Notes: a model not told the origin generated them from the sequence alone. 39,912 bases of DNA from Sphaerochaeta sp. (GCA_004294855.1 SHOI01000007.1:1-39912); one strand, 5' to 3'; numbered from the stretch's first letter, positions 2-7,310 are shown. Numbers and translations: made by a program.

Positions 2-1438
2 TATAACAAACGAGATGTGGAAACGGAACTTCTTATTCATGACAAGCTTTCCCGTTTTCCCATGTCGGATAAGGAATGGGAGATTTATCACAGAGATCAG
101 GAAATAAATGACCTCGGAATTCTGCTGGACAAAGACCTCGCTAAAAATGCCATCCGCATGAATGAAGCCGTGCGTGAAGAAAGCATGGCAAAACTCAAAC
201 GAATCACCGGGCTTGAAAATCCCAATTCTGTCCTGCAGCTGAAAGAATGGCTTTTATCAAGGGGAATCGCAACTGAATCTCTTGATAAAAAGGCAGTAAA
301 AGAACTCCTTAAAGATGCTTCAGGCGATGTCAAAGAGGTTCTTGAAACCAGGCAGGAACTGGCCAAGTCCAGCGTTAAGAAATATGAAGCGATGAGAGAC
401 TGTGTCTGTCGCGACGGCCGTGCCAGAGGACTCTTGCAGTTCTATGGAGCCAACCGCACCGGTCGCTTTTCAGGAAGGCTCATTCAAGTTCAAAATCTCC
501 CAAGAAACAAGATGGAAGATTTGGAGCTTGCAAGAAAGCTGGTCAAATATGGTGACCTTAAATCCTTAGACCTGCTCTTTGATTCTATTCCGCAAGTCTT
601 ATCGGAACTTATCCGCACCGCCTTTATTCCGAAAAAAGGACGCATCTTTCTTGTCGCTGACTACTCAGCCATTGAAGCCAGAGTCCTCGCCTGGCTGGCG
701 GAAGAAACATGGCGGATGGCGCTTTTCTCTGAAGGTGGCGATATCTACTGTAGGTCCGCAAGTGAGATGTTCGGCGTTCCTGTAGAAAAGCACGGAGTAA
801 ATGCCCATCTCAGGCAAAAAGGGAAAATAGCGGAACTCGCCTGCGGCTACGGCGGCTCAGTCGGAGCCTTAAAAGCAATGGGTGCCCTTGAGATGGGGCT
901 TTCGGAGGAGGAACTGCCGAACCTGGTAAGTGCCTGGCGTGCGACGAACCCTAATATTGTCATGCTCTGGCAGGACCTTGACCGTGCGGCTATATCTACC
1001 GTGAGAGAGCGATCGAGGAAAAAGGAAGTAAAAAATATCCGCTTTCGCTATGAGTCCGGCATGCTCATTATCACCCTTCCGTCCGGTCGAGAGCTTTTCT
1101 ATGCAAAACCCCGCATTGAAGAAAACCGCTTCGGCGGTGAGTCCATCACTTACGAAGGCGTAGGCGCGGGTAAGCACTGGGAGCGAATTGAAACCTACGG
1201 CGCGAAGCTTGTCGAAAACATCGTGCAGGCTATTTCTAGGGACATCTTATGCAATGCCCTTATGACTTTTAAATACTCCGACATTGTCATGCATGTTCAC
1301 GATGAGATCGTGATTGAAGCTGATCCTCGCATGTCGGTACAGGCTGTGTGCGACCAGATGAGCCGAACACCAAAATGGGCTAAAGGCCTAAAACTTGATG
1401 CGGACAGCTTCACTTGTCCGTTTTATCAGAAAGATTAA
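2..1438 (+). CDS. Family A DNA polymerase (phage type), 5'-truncated by window edge
   Basis: The reading frame is open to the left edge, and its first residues (YNKRDVE) look like the Exo III (Y-x-x-x-D) motif of a 3'-5' exonuclease domain. The gene therefore begins upstream, and the GTG at 17 is not its start. Numbered from that GTG, polymerase motif A (DYSAIEARVLAWLA) begins at about residue 215. The motif B region (K268 to Y278-G279) and motif C (HVHDE, His428-Asp429-Glu430) follow. These are the palm residues that bind metals and dNTP. This compact polymerase A replicates phages and phage-like elements in Firmicutes; it is not the housekeeping Pol I, since nothing resembling the 5' nuclease is expected upstream. 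It is followed by two small genes and then recombinases on the same strand, which fits an element replication module. The polymerase domain is complete and shows no inactivating change. Confidence 0.9.
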   Translation, partial: YNKRDVETELLIHDKLSRFPMSDKEWEIYHRDQEINDLGILLDKDLAKNAIRMNEAVREESMAKLKRITGLENPNSVLQLKEWLLSRGIATESLDKKAVKELLKDASGDVKEVLETRQELAKSSVKKYEAMRDCVCRDGRARGLLQFYGANRTGRFSGRLIQVQNLPRNKMEDLELARKLVKYGDLKSLDLLFDSIPQVLSELIRTAFIPKKGRIFLVADYSAIEARVLAWLAEETWRMALFSEGGDIYCRSASEMFGVPVEKHGVNAHLRQKGKIAELACGYGGSVGALKAMGALEMGLSEEELPNLVSAWRATNPNIVMLWQDLDRAAISTVRERSRKKEVKNIRFRYESGMLIITLPSGRELFYAKPRIEENRFGGESITYEGVGAGKHWERIETYGAKLVENIVQAISRDILCNALMTFKYSDIVMHVHDEIVIEADPRMSVQAVCDQMSRTPKWAKGLKLDADSFTCPFYQKD

Positions 1439-1516: not shown

Positions 1517-1737
1517 TGTTTTATACCAAATTGACGCTTTCAGAAAACAGTAAGGTTATCACCCGCCTATCTGATAAAAACGTCTACTCCATTTGCCCTA
1601 AATGCGGAAAAGAAATCCAGGTGAACCTGAGTGACGTTTTGAAAGAGGAAGATACCGATCTTCATACAACCTGTGTCTATTGCAAATCCTGTGCAAAAAA
1701 GTGGCTGAAAGAAAAAGCGGAGGTCTTCTATGAATAA
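1516..1737 (+). CDS. Small zinc-ribbon-like protein
   Basis: A 73-residue protein preceded by a good GGAGG Shine-Dalgarno. It has two cysteine pairs, CPKC at about residues 28-31 and CVYCKSC at about 53-59, spaced as in a small zinc ribbon; the rest is charged. Such proteins are common as unnamed open frames in Firmicutes prophages and conjugative elements. I do not recognise a named family. It lies between the polymerase and the recombinases, overlaps the next gene by 8 bases and is probably co-translated with it. DNA or RNA binding is plausible but not shown. The start region is enclosed by an inverted repeat. Confidence 0.7.
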   Translation: MFYTKLTLSENSKVITRLSDKNVYSICPKCGKEIQVNLSDVLKEEDTDLHTTCVYCKSCAKKWLKEKAEVFYE

Positions 1738-1930
1738 GAACCCGCTTTCCCACGAACAAATACAGGCAGAACTGGACTATCGAAGGGCTATTCATCTTGT
1801 TCTAGAAATGAAGAATATCGGCCTAATTTCTGATGAAGAAGAGGAAACGATCGAGGAAAATATCCGACAACAATTTCCTCCCTATTTAGCAGAGATATGG
1901 CCTAAAAGCCTTGCTATTCGTGGCTTTTAG
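1730..1930 (+). CDS. Small SHOCT-like protein upstream of recombinases
   Basis: A 66-residue protein whose ATG overlaps the end of the preceding gene, indicating translational coupling. The central stretch (LDYRRAIHLVLEMKNIGLIS, followed by acidic residues) resembles the short helical SHOCT-type motif: a hydrophobic helix, then G-L-I-[ST]-x-E-E. Proteins with this sequence and length often sit just upstream of large serine recombinases in Firmicutes elements. Its function is unknown; a helper role in recombination or element regulation is only inferred from position. The stop is TAG at 1928-1930, followed after 34 bases by the recombinase gene with its own Shine-Dalgarno. Confidence 0.65.
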   Translation: MNKNPLSHEQIQAELDYRRAIHLVLEMKNIGLISDEEEETIEENIRQQFPPYLAEIWPKSLAIRGF

Positions 1931-1964: not shown

Positions 1965-3491
1965 GTGATTAAGAAAATAGAACAAAGCGTGTCCAAAATA
2001 AAGATTCTTCGTGTCTGTGCCTATGTCCGAGTATCTACAGACAGTCCGGATCAGCTGGATAGCTTTCAAGCCCAAAAGAAGCATTATCAATCCTTAATTC
2101 AAGCCAATCCTTCCTGGACGTTTGTAGGAATTTACTCGGACGAAGGCATCAGTGGGACGAAGACAGATCGCAGGTTCGGACTAAAAGAAATGATGGCGGA
2201 TGCACGTTCCGGGAAAATTGATCTCATCTTAGCCAAGTCCTTATCTCGTTTTGCAAGGAATACGGTGGATACCTTAACGCTCATCCGAGAGCTAACCAAA
2301 CTCGGTGTATTTGTCAGATTTGAAAAAGAAAATATCGATACTTCTTCGTTGGAAAGTGAATTGATCCTTTCCATTGTGGCAAGTCTTGCTGAAGATGAAA
2401 GCCGATCCACTTCTCAAAATATCAAGTGGTCTATTGAGAAAAAGTTTAAAAATGGCACCTATCTTCCCGGCTATTTACCTTATGGGTACTGTTATGTAGA
2501 TAACGAAATCAAGGTTGTTCCCAAAGAAGCGGAGATTGTTCATACCATCTACCAATTAAGTATTAATGGAAAAGGCAGCTTTCGTATTGCAAAAGAGCTA
2601 AACCAGCAAAGCATCCCTTCACCTCGAAATAGAGCTTGGTCGGATTCTACTATCCTTGGAATTTTGAAAAACGAATTCTACACCGGAGATCTTTTGTGTC
2701 AAAAGACCTATACCGATGAGCATTTTCGCAGACATCGAAACCAGGGCGAAAAAGCACAATATCTCATAAAAAATCATCATCCGGCCATAGTGAATGATAC
2801 GCTTTTTAACCAAGCGCAAAAAAGAATTGAAGCGAGAAGAAAGACAAAGAATCAGCGTAATAAGACCTATCCGTTTACCGGGATGCTCCGCTGTGCAAAA
2901 TGCGGTGCAAATCTTAAAAGAAGAATCCACTACAGCGGAGAGTATTCCAGCATTCACTGGACTTGTAGTGAGCATCTGAAATCAAAAGATCATTGCACAC
3001 AGCCATCTATCGCAGAACAAAAAATTCAGTGGGCATTCCTCACGATGCTAAATAAGCTAATGTTCGCCAGTGAACAAATCTTAAGCCCTCTCCTTGAGCT
3101 TAAAGCGGAAGAAGTGGAGCAAAAGGCAGAAGAAAAAATCAATGAATTACAAATGTATCTTCAAGATATCGCAGGACAGCTTCAAGCCACGGATGAGTTA
3201 AAAGGAAAGGGGCTGTTAAATGAGAAAAACTTCCAAAAAGTCAAAGCCGAATTGCTCCAAGAGCATCTGAGAAAAACCAATGAATTGGAAACACTCAGAA
3301 AAACGAGAAAAAAGACTCACGAAAAACAAGCGGCATTGGAAGATCTCTTTCTGCTTGCAAAGAAGAAGGAATCGATCACTGATTTTGATGAGGATATATG
3401 GGAGAGATTCATAGATAGCGCCGAGGTTTATGAAAGAACCACCATCATCTTTTACCTGAAATGTGGACTGATATTAAAGGAGGCTCTCTAA
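1965..3491 (+). CDS. Large serine recombinase 1
   Basis: Starts at GTG 1965 behind a strong AGGAGG. The 508 residues show the usual order of a large serine recombinase. The resolvase catalytic domain has the nucleophile Ser24 in VRVST and the DEGISGT segment. A recombinase domain follows (from about LPYGYCY near residue 172 to ARRK). A zinc ribbon starts at Cys310-x-x-Cys313 and ends with WTCSEHLKSKDHC, and a Lys/Glu-rich coiled coil (about 375-460) closes the protein. Such enzymes join att sites to integrate or excise an element. It is followed one base later by a mini recombinase and then a second large recombinase, so the three are almost certainly co-expressed. No frameshift or missing catalytic residue is seen. 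Which of the two large proteins integrates and which excises cannot be told from sequence. Confidence 0.93.
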   Translation: MIKKIEQSVSKIKILRVCAYVRVSTDSPDQLDSFQAQKKHYQSLIQANPSWTFVGIYSDEGISGTKTDRRFGLKEMMADARSGKIDLILAKSLSRFARNTVDTLTLIRELTKLGVFVRFEKENIDTSSLESELILSIVASLAEDESRSTSQNIKWSIEKKFKNGTYLPGYLPYGYCYVDNEIKVVPKEAEIVHTIYQLSINGKGSFRIAKELNQQSIPSPRNRAWSDSTILGILKNEFYTGDLLCQKTYTDEHFRRHRNQGEKAQYLIKNHHPAIVNDTLFNQAQKRIEARRKTKNQRNKTYPFTGMLRCAKCGANLKRRIHYSGEYSSIHWTCSEHLKSKDHCTQPSIAEQKIQWAFLTMLNKLMFASEQILSPLLELKAEEVEQKAEEKINELQMYLQDIAGQLQATDELKGKGLLNEKNFQKVKAELLQEHLRKTNELETLRKTRKKTHEKQAALEDLFLLAKKKESITDFDEDIWERFIDSAEVYERTTIIFYLKCGLILKEAL

Positions 3492-3492
3492 C

Positions 3493-3903
3493 ATGCGAAC
3501 CGTTCCTTATGCTTACTGCTACAAAAACGGAAAGATCGTCATCCAAGAGGATGAGGCAAGAGTGCTAAAAAACTTATACCAAGCTTATTTAGAGCTTTCT
3601 TCCTTACAAAAGGCGGGGAATAAAGCCGGAATAAGCTTTGCCCATCCCACCATTAAACGCATGCTATCAAATCCCATTTATCTGGGGCAAGGTATCTATC
3701 CGCAAATTATTAAAAACGATTGTTTTCATGCCGTACAGAAAAAACTTAAGCAAAGAAGTAAACCAAGAAAGACCAAAAAGGAACCAATTGTTTACAAAGT
3801 TCCCAAATTTAACCTAGCGCTGGTGCCTGCGAGCAAAAAAGATCCCTACGAGCAAGCGGCACTTATTTACGAAAGAATTGAGGTAGTACATGAAAAAGAA
3901 TAA
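3493..3903 (+). CDS. Mini recombinase: recombinase domain without catalytic domain
   Basis: This 136-residue protein lies one base after the first recombinase and overlaps the second by 14 bases. By eye it aligns with the recombinase (DNA-binding) domain of its neighbour. [19 protein letters not shown] matches the neighbour's LPYGYCYVDNEIKVVPKEA, and '[17 protein letters not shown]' matches 'TILGILKNEFYTGDLLC'. There is no resolvase domain, no catalytic serine, no zinc ribbon and no coiled coil, so it cannot cut DNA alone. It may bind att DNA or pair with one of the large recombinases as a directionality or specificity factor; that is inference. Its retention as an intact frame, overlapping the next gene, argues against it being a decaying fragment. 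Confidence 0.8.
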
Positions 3904-5452
3904 CGTGATGATCATACCTGCAAAACCACAGAGGCATCACTCATCCAGAGAAAAAGAAAAGCTCCGAGTGGCAGCCTACTGTCGTGTCTCTACGGAGACG
4001 GAAGAGCAAAACCTAAGCTACGATGCACAGATAAATCACTATACTGACTACATTAACGACCATGAAGGATGGACTCTTGCCGGGATTTATGCCGACGATG
4101 GAATATCCGGCACCCGTACAAAAGAACGTCTGGAATTTCTACGGATGATTGAGGATGCGATGGATGGAAAAATCGATTTCATCATTACTAAATCCATCTC
4201 CCGCTTTGCCCGAAACACATTAGACTGCCTTCGCTACATCCGAAAGCTTAAGGAGAAGAACATTCCCGTCTATTTCGAGAAAGAGTCTATTAACACCATG
4301 GACTCTAAGGGAGAAGTCCTTCTGACTATCATGGCTTCCCTAGCTCAGCAGGAAAGTCAGTCCCTTTCACAAAATGTCAAACTAGGGCTCCAATACCGCT
4401 ACCAACAAGGAAAAGTCCTCGTGAACCATAATCGTTTTTTGGGTTATGGAAAAGACGAAGAAGGAGGACTCATCATCATTCCTGAAGAAGCAGAAATTAT
4501 CCGCCGTATTTATCGGGAGTATTTGGAAGGACAGTCCCCCTATGCGATTGCTAAAAACTTAGAAAAAGATGGCATTTTAACGGGTGCTGGAAAGACAAAA
4601 TGGTATGATACAACCATTCGAAAAATCCTGCAAAATGAAAAATACATAGGCGATGCCCTCTTACAAAAAACCTACACTGTAGATTTTTTAAGTAAACACA
4701 GAGTTAAGAATACAGGTGAAGTGCCCCAATACTATGTAGAAGATCATCACGAAGCGATCATCCCCAAAAATATTTTTTATGCTGTACAGGAAGAAATGCT
4801 CCGAAGGCAAAGCGGAAAACGAGGTAAAAACGGCGTGAAAAGAAGCTACAGCTCCAACAATTGCTTTTCTAATATTGTAGTCTGTGGAAACTGTGGTGAT
4901 ATCTTTCGCCGGGTTCATTGGAACAACCGAGGCAAAAAGTCAATTGTCTGGCGATGCGTCAGTCGGCTGGAAAATAGAGGTACTAAGTGCACCGCAAGGA
5001 CTCTTCCTGAAGATGATCTTATTCTCACAACCATGACCTCCTTCAAGAAAATGCTTACCGATAAGAAAGAATTCTTGAACCGTTTGATGCTAGCAATTGA
5101 AGAAGGCATGGGGGCAAAAAACAGTCGCTCCCTGTTCGATATCGAGGAAGAGTTGGATCAGCTTCAACTTCAACTTATCGCCCGCACTTCCTCAAAAGAA
5201 GAGTACAACGATTTGGCAGAAAAGATTTACGCCCTAAAAGATGAGAAAGAAAGAGTTCTTCAAGAAGAAGCCGGCAAAGAAAATCATAAGAAAAATCTAC
5301 AATCTATTGAGCAGTTTATCCAAACCCAGGACGTAGAGACTTTAGAATTTGAAGACAAACTGGTCAGACAGTTTGTAGATAAAATACTGGTACTCGACGA
5401 AACAATCGAGGTGACCTTCAAGACGGGTACTTGTGTGAGGATTGATGGGTAA
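3890..5452 (+). CDS. Large serine recombinase 2
   Basis: A 520-residue enzyme whose ATG lies inside the end of the mini-recombinase gene. The catalytic domain has Ser34 in YCRVST and the DDGISGT segment. The recombinase domain follows ([10 protein letters not shown] onward), then a zinc ribbon beginning Cys332-x-x-Cys335 and ending [15 protein letters not shown] coiled coil (about 405-480) and a short beta-rich tail come last. It is related to, but clearly distinct from, recombinase 1, so the two are not a recent tandem duplication. Paired large recombinases of this kind occur in Firmicutes prophages and mobilizable elements, where both can be needed for movement. It is the last gene of the + strand block, consistent with the element end lying just downstream. 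Confidence 0.93.
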
Positions 5453-5495: not shown

Positions 5496-5873
5496 TTAAT
5501 CTTGGCACTTGATCGTCGTGCCGATGTGTTTATCTAATCTCCATTGGGGAGCAACGTCATCATCTGCCCAATACTCATCCATTGAAATGATTTTATCGTC
5601 TGCTATTCTTATGAACGATACCACATGAAAATGTGCACTCCTGTCTTTAGAGTACACCTTTGTTACCGTTATGAGCAAGTCATCCAGCACTTCAAGTCGT
5701 TCAACCTTCCCATCCCAATCACCGGGATATTCACAGTTAGCAATTAAAAACTCATCAACACTGAAGTGCTCATTGGTACAATGCCAATTAACAGAAGCGT
5801 CTTCATGAAAGTACATCCTAAGTGTCTGCTCGTCTTGCGTCAGCACGGCTTTCCAAAAATTATATACATTCAT
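5496..5873 (-). CDS. NTF2-like (SnoaL-type) protein
   Basis: About 125 residues from the ATG at 5873, chosen because GAGG lies seven bases upstream; an earlier TTG at 5891 would place that Shine-Dalgarno inside the gene. The order of one long N-terminal helix (VYNFWKAVLTQDEQTLRMYF), then HEDASVNWHCTNE and a curved sheet with repeated hydrophobic strands (LEVLDDLLITVTKVYSK, HFHVVSFIRIADDKI) followed by MDEYW, is the NTF2/SnoaL cone fold. Members act as small isomerases, hydrolases or ligand binders, or are uncharacterised; the ligand is unknown here. It faces the recombinase block and has no operon partner. It may be cargo of the element. Family assignment is good; function is not. Confidence 0.75.
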   Translation of the reverse strand: MNVYNFWKAVLTQDEQTLRMYFHEDASVNWHCTNEHFSVDEFLIANCEYPGDWDGKVERLEVLDDLLITVTKVYSKDRSAHFHVVSFIRIADDKIISMDEYWADDDVAPQWRLDKHIGTTIKCQD

Positions 5874-5935
5874 AATTTTCCTCGCTTGCAAATCCTATTT
5901 TTGCTTTCATAACATCTACTCCACACGCTCCACCT

Positions 5936-6126: not shown

Positions 6127-6366
6127 TCAGCCATTTCTTGACATCAATACTACCGTCTCCACATGGAAACCTCGCGGAAAAAATCTGACCAAACCGGCTG
6201 TTACAAACTCTCCGCTGCTTACCCCCTTGCTAGCAACATGAAGAATTGGAAGCATTGCCAGGAGACTGAAGAGAAACATATACACGTAGGCAATTGCAGA
6301 TACGGTCTTCTCACTGATATCCTTGCCTACTTTTTTACTTGCTACAGCCTTATTCTTCATATTCAT
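6127..6366 (-). pseudogene. Truncated lplC-like sugar ABC permease
   Basis: The ATG at 6366 shares one base with the lplB stop (TGATG), the usual coupling of the two permease genes. The first ~70 residues match the start of LplC/YtcP-type permeases: a cytoplasmic N-terminus, a first membrane segment (about YVYMFLFSLLAMLPILHVAS), then SSGEFVTAGLV and FPRGFHVET. The sequence then turns unrelated and stops. Intact members are near 290-300 residues with six membrane segments and an EAA loop, all missing here and not found elsewhere in the window. The break lies near 6130-6160, next to the element. The heterodimeric channel formed with LplB cannot be complete. A rearrangement or insertion at this point is the likely cause. 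Confidence 0.75.
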
Positions 6367-7310
6367 CACCAAATGCTTCTACTGAGAGTCTTTCTGCTAA
6401 CAGCATTGCTTGAAACGATAAGAATCAAAGCAACAACGGAATTGAACAGACCAAGAGCGGTTGACAATGGGAAGTTCATCTGACCGATGCCGAGTCTGTA
6501 AACGTAGGTCTGGATAATATCCGCAACGTCGTAGACGGAAGGATTGTAGAAAACAAGAACCTGCTCAAAACCTGTCGTAAGGATATTGCCCACTTTGAGA
6601 ATCAACATGAGAACAATGGTTGGAAGAATGCCGGGAATCGTTATATTCCAGATTTGTAACCATTTGTTTGCACCGTCAATCTTTGCAGCTTCATACAATG
6701 TGGGATCTATAGCGGTGATGGTAGCAAGATATATGATTGTATTGTAGCCAACTTCCTTCCAACCCTCCGAGAAGACCAGCATTCCGCGAAAGACCTGCGG
6801 ATCAGTAAAGAAGCCTATTCTTTCTCCACCCGTCTTTGTAATAATGGTGTTTACGATGCCGTATGATCCAAACAGTGAATAAAAAATACCGAAGATGACA
6901 ACCCAAGAGAAGAAATAGGGAACATAAATAACGGTCTGAGTTATGGCTTTATAGGTCTTGGCTTTTATTTCGTTCAATAGAATTGCAGTAATGATCGGAA
7001 CCGGAAACAACCAAAGAATTTTCATTCCGTTGATAATAAGAGTATTCTTCAAAACCTTGAAGAACTGGTCGCTTGAGAAAAGTCTCCTGAAATGCTCAAA
7101 ACCAACCCATGGACTCTTGGCAATTGCATCGAGAGGGTTGTTTCCCGTAAAAATATTGTAATCCTTGAAAGCAATGAGAGTTCCGTAAAGAGGAAGAAAT
7201 TTGTAGATGAAGAGGAAAAACAATCCCGGAATCAACATTACATACAAAACCCAGTTTTGTCTGAAGTACTGCCAGAAGGTTTTTTTCTCCTGTCGACAAT
7301 GTTGCTTCAT
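6366..7310 (-). CDS. lplB: LplB/YtcQ-family sugar ABC transporter permease
   Basis: A 314-residue polytopic membrane protein of the usual LplB length. It has the short positive N-terminus (WQYFRQNWVLYVMLIPGLF), the family segment IYKFLPLYGTLIAFKDYNIF, and the EAA loop EAAKIDGANKWLQIWNITIP at about residues 224-243 that contacts the ATPase. Such permeases import oligosaccharides or sugar derivatives together with LplC, a solute-binding protein and a shared MsmX-type ATPase. Here the partner LplC is broken and no binding protein lies on either side, so transport is doubtful. The ATG at 7310 lacks a good Shine-Dalgarno and has a TATAAT immediately in front, so the start is uncertain. Substrate unknown. 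Confidence 0.88.
   Translation of the reverse strand: MKQHCRQEKKTFWQYFRQNWVLYVMLIPGLFFLFIYKFLPLYGTLIAFKDYNIFTGNNPLDAIAKSPWVGFEHFRRLFSSDQFFKVLKNTLIINGMKILWLFPVPIITAILLNEIKAKTYKAITQTVIYVPYFFSWVVIFGIFYSLFGSYGIVNTIITKTGGERIGFFTDPQVFRGMLVFSEGWKEVGYNTIIYLATITAIDPTLYEAAKIDGANKWLQIWNITIPGILPTIVLMLILKVGNILTTGFEQVLVFYNPSVYDVADIIQTYVYRLGIGQMNFPLSTALGLFNSVVALILIVSSNAVSRKTLSRSIW

Follow-up and report, generated by a model that had tools for sequence, protein, structure and literature searches.

A 39,912-nucleotide stretch of DNA from Sphaerochaeta sp. (GCA_004294855.1 SHOI01000007.1:1-39912; hereafter the window) carries a conserved quartet of genes found at the end of integrated elements. The quartet encodes a SHOCT_2-domain protein, a large serine recombinase (LSR1), a protein consisting of a recombinase domain alone (the mini) and a second, different large serine recombinase (LSR2). 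On balance, we favour the reading that the mini is a non-catalytic DNA-binding subunit of a heteromeric serine integrase; rather than being a broken gene, it probably functions within the insertion machinery. An earlier note on this DNA, made from the sequence alone, had proposed that such a domain-only partner between two active enzymes could act as a specificity or directionality factor.

Both outer proteins have the Pfam domain set of large serine recombinases (LSRs), i.e., Resolvase (PF00239; 4.6e-34 in LSR1 and 1.3e-34 in LSR2), Recombinase (PF07508; 2.3e-26 and 3.9e-26, above the cutoff) and the zinc ribbon (PF13408; 1.6e-11 and 2.3e-11, above the cutoff). Their catalytic serines, S24 in the YVRVST motif of LSR1 and S34 in the YCRVST motif of LSR2, are invariant across the family alignments, which confirms the earlier description of two different recombinases, each with an intact catalytic serine. 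A long insert is seen, by sequence alignment alone, at the place expected for the coiled coil in the zinc domain of both. By contrast with this domain set, the mini matches Recombinase only (3.2e-6, above the Pfam cutoff), with no match to Resolvase. Residues 1-131 of the mini align to positions 1-135 of the 137 in PHROG 7701 (6.5e-35), and no model in NCBIfam matches it. On re-check, the gene coordinates given in the earlier note were exact, as were the single base between LSR1 and the mini and the 14-base overlap of the mini with LSR2. The start codon of LSR1 is GTG.

The predicted structure of the mini agrees with its domain content. The AlphaFold2 model, with 52 minis in the input, has a predicted local distance difference test (pLDDT) score of 91.7. 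The best matches found by Foldseek in the PDB were 4kis and 6dnw, the C-terminal domain of the A118/LI integrase (1.6e-4). In the VIA comparison, which spans residues 1-92 of the mini and not 93-136, the top 21 PDB entries were all LSR recombinase domains (Z 6.3 to 11.5), including those of A118/LI, SPbeta YokA, Bxb1 and phiC31, and the next chain was a transcription factor (Z 5.6). The entries 6dnw, 4kis and 9y66 each gave Z 11.5, with a root-mean-square deviation of 2.0-2.1 over 87-90 residues. Where the matched entry was a complex with a bound recombination directionality factor (RDF), as in 9dxd, the matching part was the recombinase domain of the integrase, residues 169-304. Foldseek searches of viral models gave weak matches only, the best being to integrases. 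The fold is thus not an unrelated one, and the middle protein corresponds to the recombinase DNA-binding domain alone, as the earlier note had judged by eye. Compared with the LSRs, the mini begins at the recombinase domain: the helix that links this domain to the catalytic one is missing, as are a loop (about 10 residues), a hairpin (about 30 residues) and the whole sequence from the zinc ribbon onward. The helix-turn-helix is retained. In the A118 integrase, Tyr207 and Asn208 of helix H contact bases (PMC3783163). The mini profile aligns residue 51 of the mini to Tyr207; this residue is His in 97% of the minis and variable in LSR1 and LSR2, which suggests that the minis read DNA in their own way.

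To follow the distribution of the module, a profile was built from 14 minis. Among bacterial genomes, 199 relatives matched it, and among viral contigs 189; 80 from each group were analysed. The complete, uninterrupted order SHOCT-LSR1-mini-LSR2 was present in 134 of 171 loci. Because these loci had been found through the mini, the scan was repeated with LSR2 and LSR1 as queries, blind to the mini, some contigs being common to both sets of 80. The full LSR1-mini-LSR2 trio was present in 78 of 80 loci with the LSR2 query and in 72 of 80 with the LSR1 query. The other loci were partial, with the mini beside one recombinase, apart from one exception that ends inside LSR1. All 150 complete LSR1/LSR2 pairs, which are not all distinct, hold the mini in between, and no pair without it was found. 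The trio is therefore conserved across elements, and full-length relatives of the mini occupy the equivalent position in hundreds of them. Anaeromicropila populeti is a further host of the module. Most members are 136-143 amino acids long. The gap between LSR1 and the mini is mostly -4 to +5 bases, and the mini and LSR2 usually overlap or lie a few bases apart; the overlaps are upper bounds because the open reading frame (ORF) caller picks the first possible start. From 52 close pairs, the median ratio of nonsynonymous to synonymous substitution rates (dN/dS) was 0.146 for the mini (maximum 0.58), as compared with 0.083 for LSR1 and 0.064 for LSR2. The mini is under purifying selection.

A recombinase-domain tree was used to examine the origin of the mini. 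In it, the minis formed a single clade with an ultrafast bootstrap (UFBoot) support of 100, and the values were 91 for LSR1, 77 for LSR2 and 99 for the short LSRs of the two-gene sets described below. The C-terminus of the mini carries a conserved motif, DP[YF]xQAxYxYSxIE, in which P118 is conserved in 97%, Q121 in 94%, A122 in 98%, Y126 in 98% and I129 in 97% of the minis. A further scan found long minis of 254-277 amino acids at the equivalent genetic position in loci L420, L421, L423, L424, L433 and L448. They contain the recombinase domain and the zinc ribbon (PF13408, 9e-13 in L420) without a catalytic domain, and carry DPxKQAEYxYS at the place of the LSR coiled-coil insertion, with the final portion of the zinc domain behind it. 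With the root of the mini tree set by LSR1/LSR2, the long minis are a deep-branching sister to the short ones (support 96 and 87; all-mini clade 100). Because the long minis keep the zinc ribbon and carry the motif where LSRs have the coiled coil, the mini can be read as a third recombinase stripped to DNA binding and a probable protein-contact motif. In the simplest history, a third recombinase would have lost its catalytic domain and exchanged its coiled coil for the motif, and the zinc ribbon would have been lost afterwards, with the recombinase domain and the motif kept. The motif may be a protein-contact surface because, in known LSRs, synapsis and direction depend on the coiled coil (PMC3783163).

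Likely descent from a full recombinase raises the possibility that the mini is a functionless leftover of the third recombinase, or a pseudogene fragment, and the published streptococcal triplets have a full middle gene (PMC4701971). However, a dN/dS of 0.15, the fixed length, a single ancient origin (UFBoot 100) and the presence of the mini in every complete pair speak against this, and where decay occurs it is often LSR1 that is truncated while the mini stays open. We regard a leftover as extremely improbable. In particular, a random decaying fragment, which the earlier note had named beside an unrelated fold as an outcome that would refute its proposal, is rejected on the selection on the mini, its monophyly and its universal presence.

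To see with which recombinase the mini is inherited, the divergence of the three proteins was compared over 157 trios. The partial correlation of the mini was 0.58 with LSR1 and 0.16 with LSR2, and the LSR1 and LSR2 trees were themselves correlated (r 0.83). In mosaic modules, two of which are L088 and L210, the break is close to the beginning of LSR2, with LSR1 and the mini kept together and LSR2 exchanged; no case of LSR1 parted from the mini was seen among the mosaic trios. About four or more events were counted. Because the mosaic pairs are not independent, it is suggestive rather than firm that the mini is inherited mainly with LSR1. Alternatively, LSR1 and LSR2 might work independently, e.g., at different sites or in opposite directions, with the mini serving one of them only: both LSRs look complete, the mini diverges with LSR1 far more than with LSR2, and LSR2 is exchanged between modules. 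This independence seems quite improbable to us, however, since the two recombinases occur together almost without exception and their trees correlate.

In the heteromeric integrase that we favour, the four genes would form one integration/excision module. The mini would occupy part of the att site through its helix-turn-helix, its tail motif would touch LSR1 and/or LSR2, and a complex of LSR1, the mini and LSR2 would carry out integration or excision. Judging from its closer inheritance with LSR1, the mini may help to define the sites that LSR1 binds. A specificity or architectural role is compatible with the data because of the family-specific His at the base-reading position and the co-inheritance with LSR1. 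We can also imagine, as a tentative and rather doubtful extension, a three-subunit integrase in which the non-catalytic paralogue sets site choice or direction, LSR1 and the mini are an exchangeable specificity unit, and LSR2 is the common catalytic partner.

Several points weigh against a heteromeric integrase or against the part given to the mini in it. Both LSRs look complete, and either might be active by itself. Two of the three serine recombinases of the Bacillus gin element are dispensable for gerE excision (PMC5595907), and the number of recombinase genes is therefore no proof of co-operation. The contact surface in the tail motif is inferred from conservation and position, and the linkage to LSR1 comes from few independent mosaic events, the four or more mentioned above. 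The mini alone, lacking the zinc ribbon and the linker, may bind DNA weakly, because direct base contacts by the recombinase domain of the A118 integrase are few and cover 3 bp of the major groove (PMC3783163). Finally, against the linkage to LSR1, in a Lachnospiraceae metagenome assembly (L149, 5001-7058), the mini and LSR2 form one frame of 685 amino acids, with a 20-codon linker without a stop and a possible internal GTG start. From this fusion, the mini may therefore contact both LSR1 and LSR2.

The directionality role raised in the earlier note fared less well than the domain-only partner itself, for which the fold, the conservation and the fixed position all speak. As a directionality factor, the mini would turn the LSR complex from integrating to excising. 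In favour of this, the tail motif takes the place of the coiled coil, through which the directionality of known LSRs is controlled (PMC3783163), and if these LSRs are unidirectional, some accessory protein must exist. On the other hand, the mini abuts or overlaps both recombinase genes in nearly all loci, and no promoter-like site was seen on the plus strand inside the operon, so that nothing points to separate timing; a factor produced at a constant ratio to its enzymes would be a poor switch. The SHOCT gene, or an unseen gene, is an equally good candidate. RDFs are not known to carry a recombinase domain. The mini shares with phiC31 gp3, SPbeta SprB/YotN and GirX of the Bacillus gin element that it is a small protein encoded with an LSR, but it differs from them in matching the recombinase domain itself and in being locked inside the recombinase operon. 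We therefore consider a directionality switch unlikely.

A DNA-binding domain without catalysis, with a conserved His at the base-reading position, would also suit an operon repressor or a dominant-negative regulator, which would act at or near the att site or the promoter and tune the expression or activity of the LSRs. The mini is made together with its targets, as is often the case for autoregulators. However, it always lies between both enzymes and is never swapped for an unrelated regulator, and its ancestor kept both recombinase DNA-binding domains, which fits an att site better than a promoter. A purely regulatory protein is thus an improbable alternative to the DNA-binding subunit proposed here.

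The first gene of the module had been overlooked in the earlier note. We count the unit as a quartet because the SHOCT_2 gene, encoding about 70 amino acids, lies directly 5' of LSR1 in 135 of the 138 loci in which LSR1 is intact and the sequence reaches far enough upstream, as well as in L012, L015, L016 and L039-L044. The model of its product is a helical hairpin (pLDDT 79), which gave only chance matches, none of them significant, in the PDB, a result that speaks neither for nor against a known RDF fold. By its position, this protein is a candidate directionality factor. Four loci of related genomes (L235, L236, L237 and L240) have the same leading SHOCT gene followed by a short LSR of 434-472 amino acids and a long LSR of 526-674 amino acids, with no mini; the short LSRs apparently have no coiled coil. 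No report of SHOCT proteins with serine recombinases was found in a literature search that most subscription journals lay outside. Immediately 5' of the SHOCT gene in the window, positions 1516-1737 encode a 73-residue CxxC zinc-ribbon-like protein (phrog_21057, 7.4e-16).

The features of the window are collected in Table 1. A sugar ABC permease gene is split by a phage-type element that has the module at its right end and a DNA polymerase A gene upstream of it; the polymerase gene is likewise upstream in L039-L042. The inferred end of the element is about 700 bp past LSR2. The rest of the permease, an ORF of 278 amino acids, is on contig C23 of the same genome, and the intact gene of a relative encodes 291 amino acids. 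When the right flank of the window was joined to C23 (G000:C23, locus L268, at about position 1486), an uninterrupted in-frame permease, ...VRFFPRGFHVET continuing as LKFIILGTGFL..., was restored. The two-base core is likely AC on the permease strand. The reconstructed attP and attB showed 3-11 palindromic pairs of 25, varying with the chosen centre, which favours neither homodimer nor heterodimer binding. At the opposite end of the element, an Erm-type 23S rRNA methyltransferase gene (L268, 192-992, minus strand; NF000499, 222 bits against a cutoff of 212) adjoins the restored permease junction. A terminase profile search of the host bin did not find the prophage body.

Table 1. Genes of the recombinase module and landmarks of the element end in the window
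Feature	Position	Strand	Evidence or remark
Family A DNA polymerase	2..1438	+	PF00476 5.9e-24; upstream of the recombinase module
SHOCT_2-domain protein, 66 aa, first gene of the module	1730..1930	+	PF20612 9.4e-9; phrog_2996
LSR1, large serine recombinase, 508 aa, catalytic S24	1965..3491	+	Pfam; phrog_95 3.6e-139
Mini, recombinase-domain-only protein, 136 aa	3493..3903	+	PF07508 alone; phrog_7701 6.5e-35
LSR2, large serine recombinase, 520 aa, catalytic S34	3890..5452	+	Pfam; phrog_95 1.6e-143
Interrupted YtcP-type sugar ABC permease gene (target site), 5' part	6130..6372	-	81-aa N-terminal fragment
attR crossover dinucleotide (inferred), GT on +, AC on the permease strand	6155..6156	.	Restored permease ORF; exact base ambiguous by a few positions

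In the relatives, the interval from LSR2 to the element end is occupied by cargo genes. In the window, a gene for a SnoaL-like small protein (5496-5891, minus strand) is found in this interval. In several unrelated hosts, a conserved gene of 77-84 amino acids is located about 135-230 bp past LSR2 (L088, L098, L123, L126, L170, L277, L279 and L293).

In many chromosomal copies of the module, LSR1 is truncated or split at differing places, and the mini and usually LSR2 are open. These loci are L090, L092, L093, L102, L105, L116, L121, L122, L127, L129, L137, L142, L146, L147, L152, L226 and L227, together with G017, G018 and G029. Decay or insertion may be the cause of the truncation. In the rumA-associated phage phi-SsuFJNP3_rum (L013, 1807-2097), LSR1 is reduced to a C-terminal piece beside the mini; an N-terminal part resembling that of LSR1 is found at a great distance in the record of this phage (W01:47976-49106). 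An att site inside LSR1 is possible in this case.

The module occurs in live phage systems. Mitomycin C induces the plaque-forming Gardnerella phage vB_Gva_AB1, in which the quartet corresponds to ORF46-49 and the mini is annotated as a hypothetical protein (PMC7996455). The Terrisporobacter phage TPDSL_ph1, sequenced from culture supernatant, also carries the quartet.

Among the known systems, the closest in outline are the serine integrase triplets (E/M/I) of streptococcal integrative and conjugative elements (ICEs; Ambroset et al. 2016, PMC4701971). The triplets resemble the present module in having three serine-recombinase genes in tandem and in the same orientation close to the element end, in their very short direct repeats, in inserting into a protein gene, and in clades that follow position. 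Every member of the triplets has a catalytic Resolvase domain, and no SHOCT gene is mentioned in the passages considered here, whereas the middle member described here has no catalytic domain, zinc ribbon or coiled coil. Because all triplet members have catalytic domains, the module falls outside the triplet group as defined, and its identity with a published triplet was rejected for the same difference in the middle member. It may derive from a triplet-like ancestor. CcrA/CcrB of the staphylococcal cassette chromosome (SCC; PMC6222049) and orf56/orf57 of prophage Phi1207.3 (PMC4260502) are likewise tandem pairs of different LSRs that are thought to co-operate, but, unlike in the present module, no recombinase-domain-only protein is reported between them. 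LSR1 and LSR2 were also tried as CcrA, CcrB or CcrC and rejected, the CcrB scores being 133.7 and 137.5 bits against an NCBIfam equivalog cutoff of 900. No account of a catalytic-domain-less middle member or recombinase in such operons was found in the literature, most subscription journals being outside the search. PHROG 7701 ('DNA invertase', 137 positions) is the same family as the mini, under a generic name that gives no context, origin or role, and the label is misleading because its members have no catalytic domain. The family is thus already catalogued and functionally undescribed, its members being annotated at present only as 'DNA invertase', 'recombinase' or 'hypothetical protein'.

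Large serine integrases have been described, and are used in genome engineering, as single-protein enzymes, with unrelated factors setting their direction. A module that is widespread in phages and prophages, and in which two catalytic recombinases are accompanied by an obligate DNA-binding-only paralogue, suggests a heteromeric serine integrase. If the mini sets site choice or synapsis, this would explain elements with three recombinase genes, aid the finding of att sites and provide a new handle for control. If the paralogue sets site choice or direction, it would represent serine integrase control of a kind not seen before.

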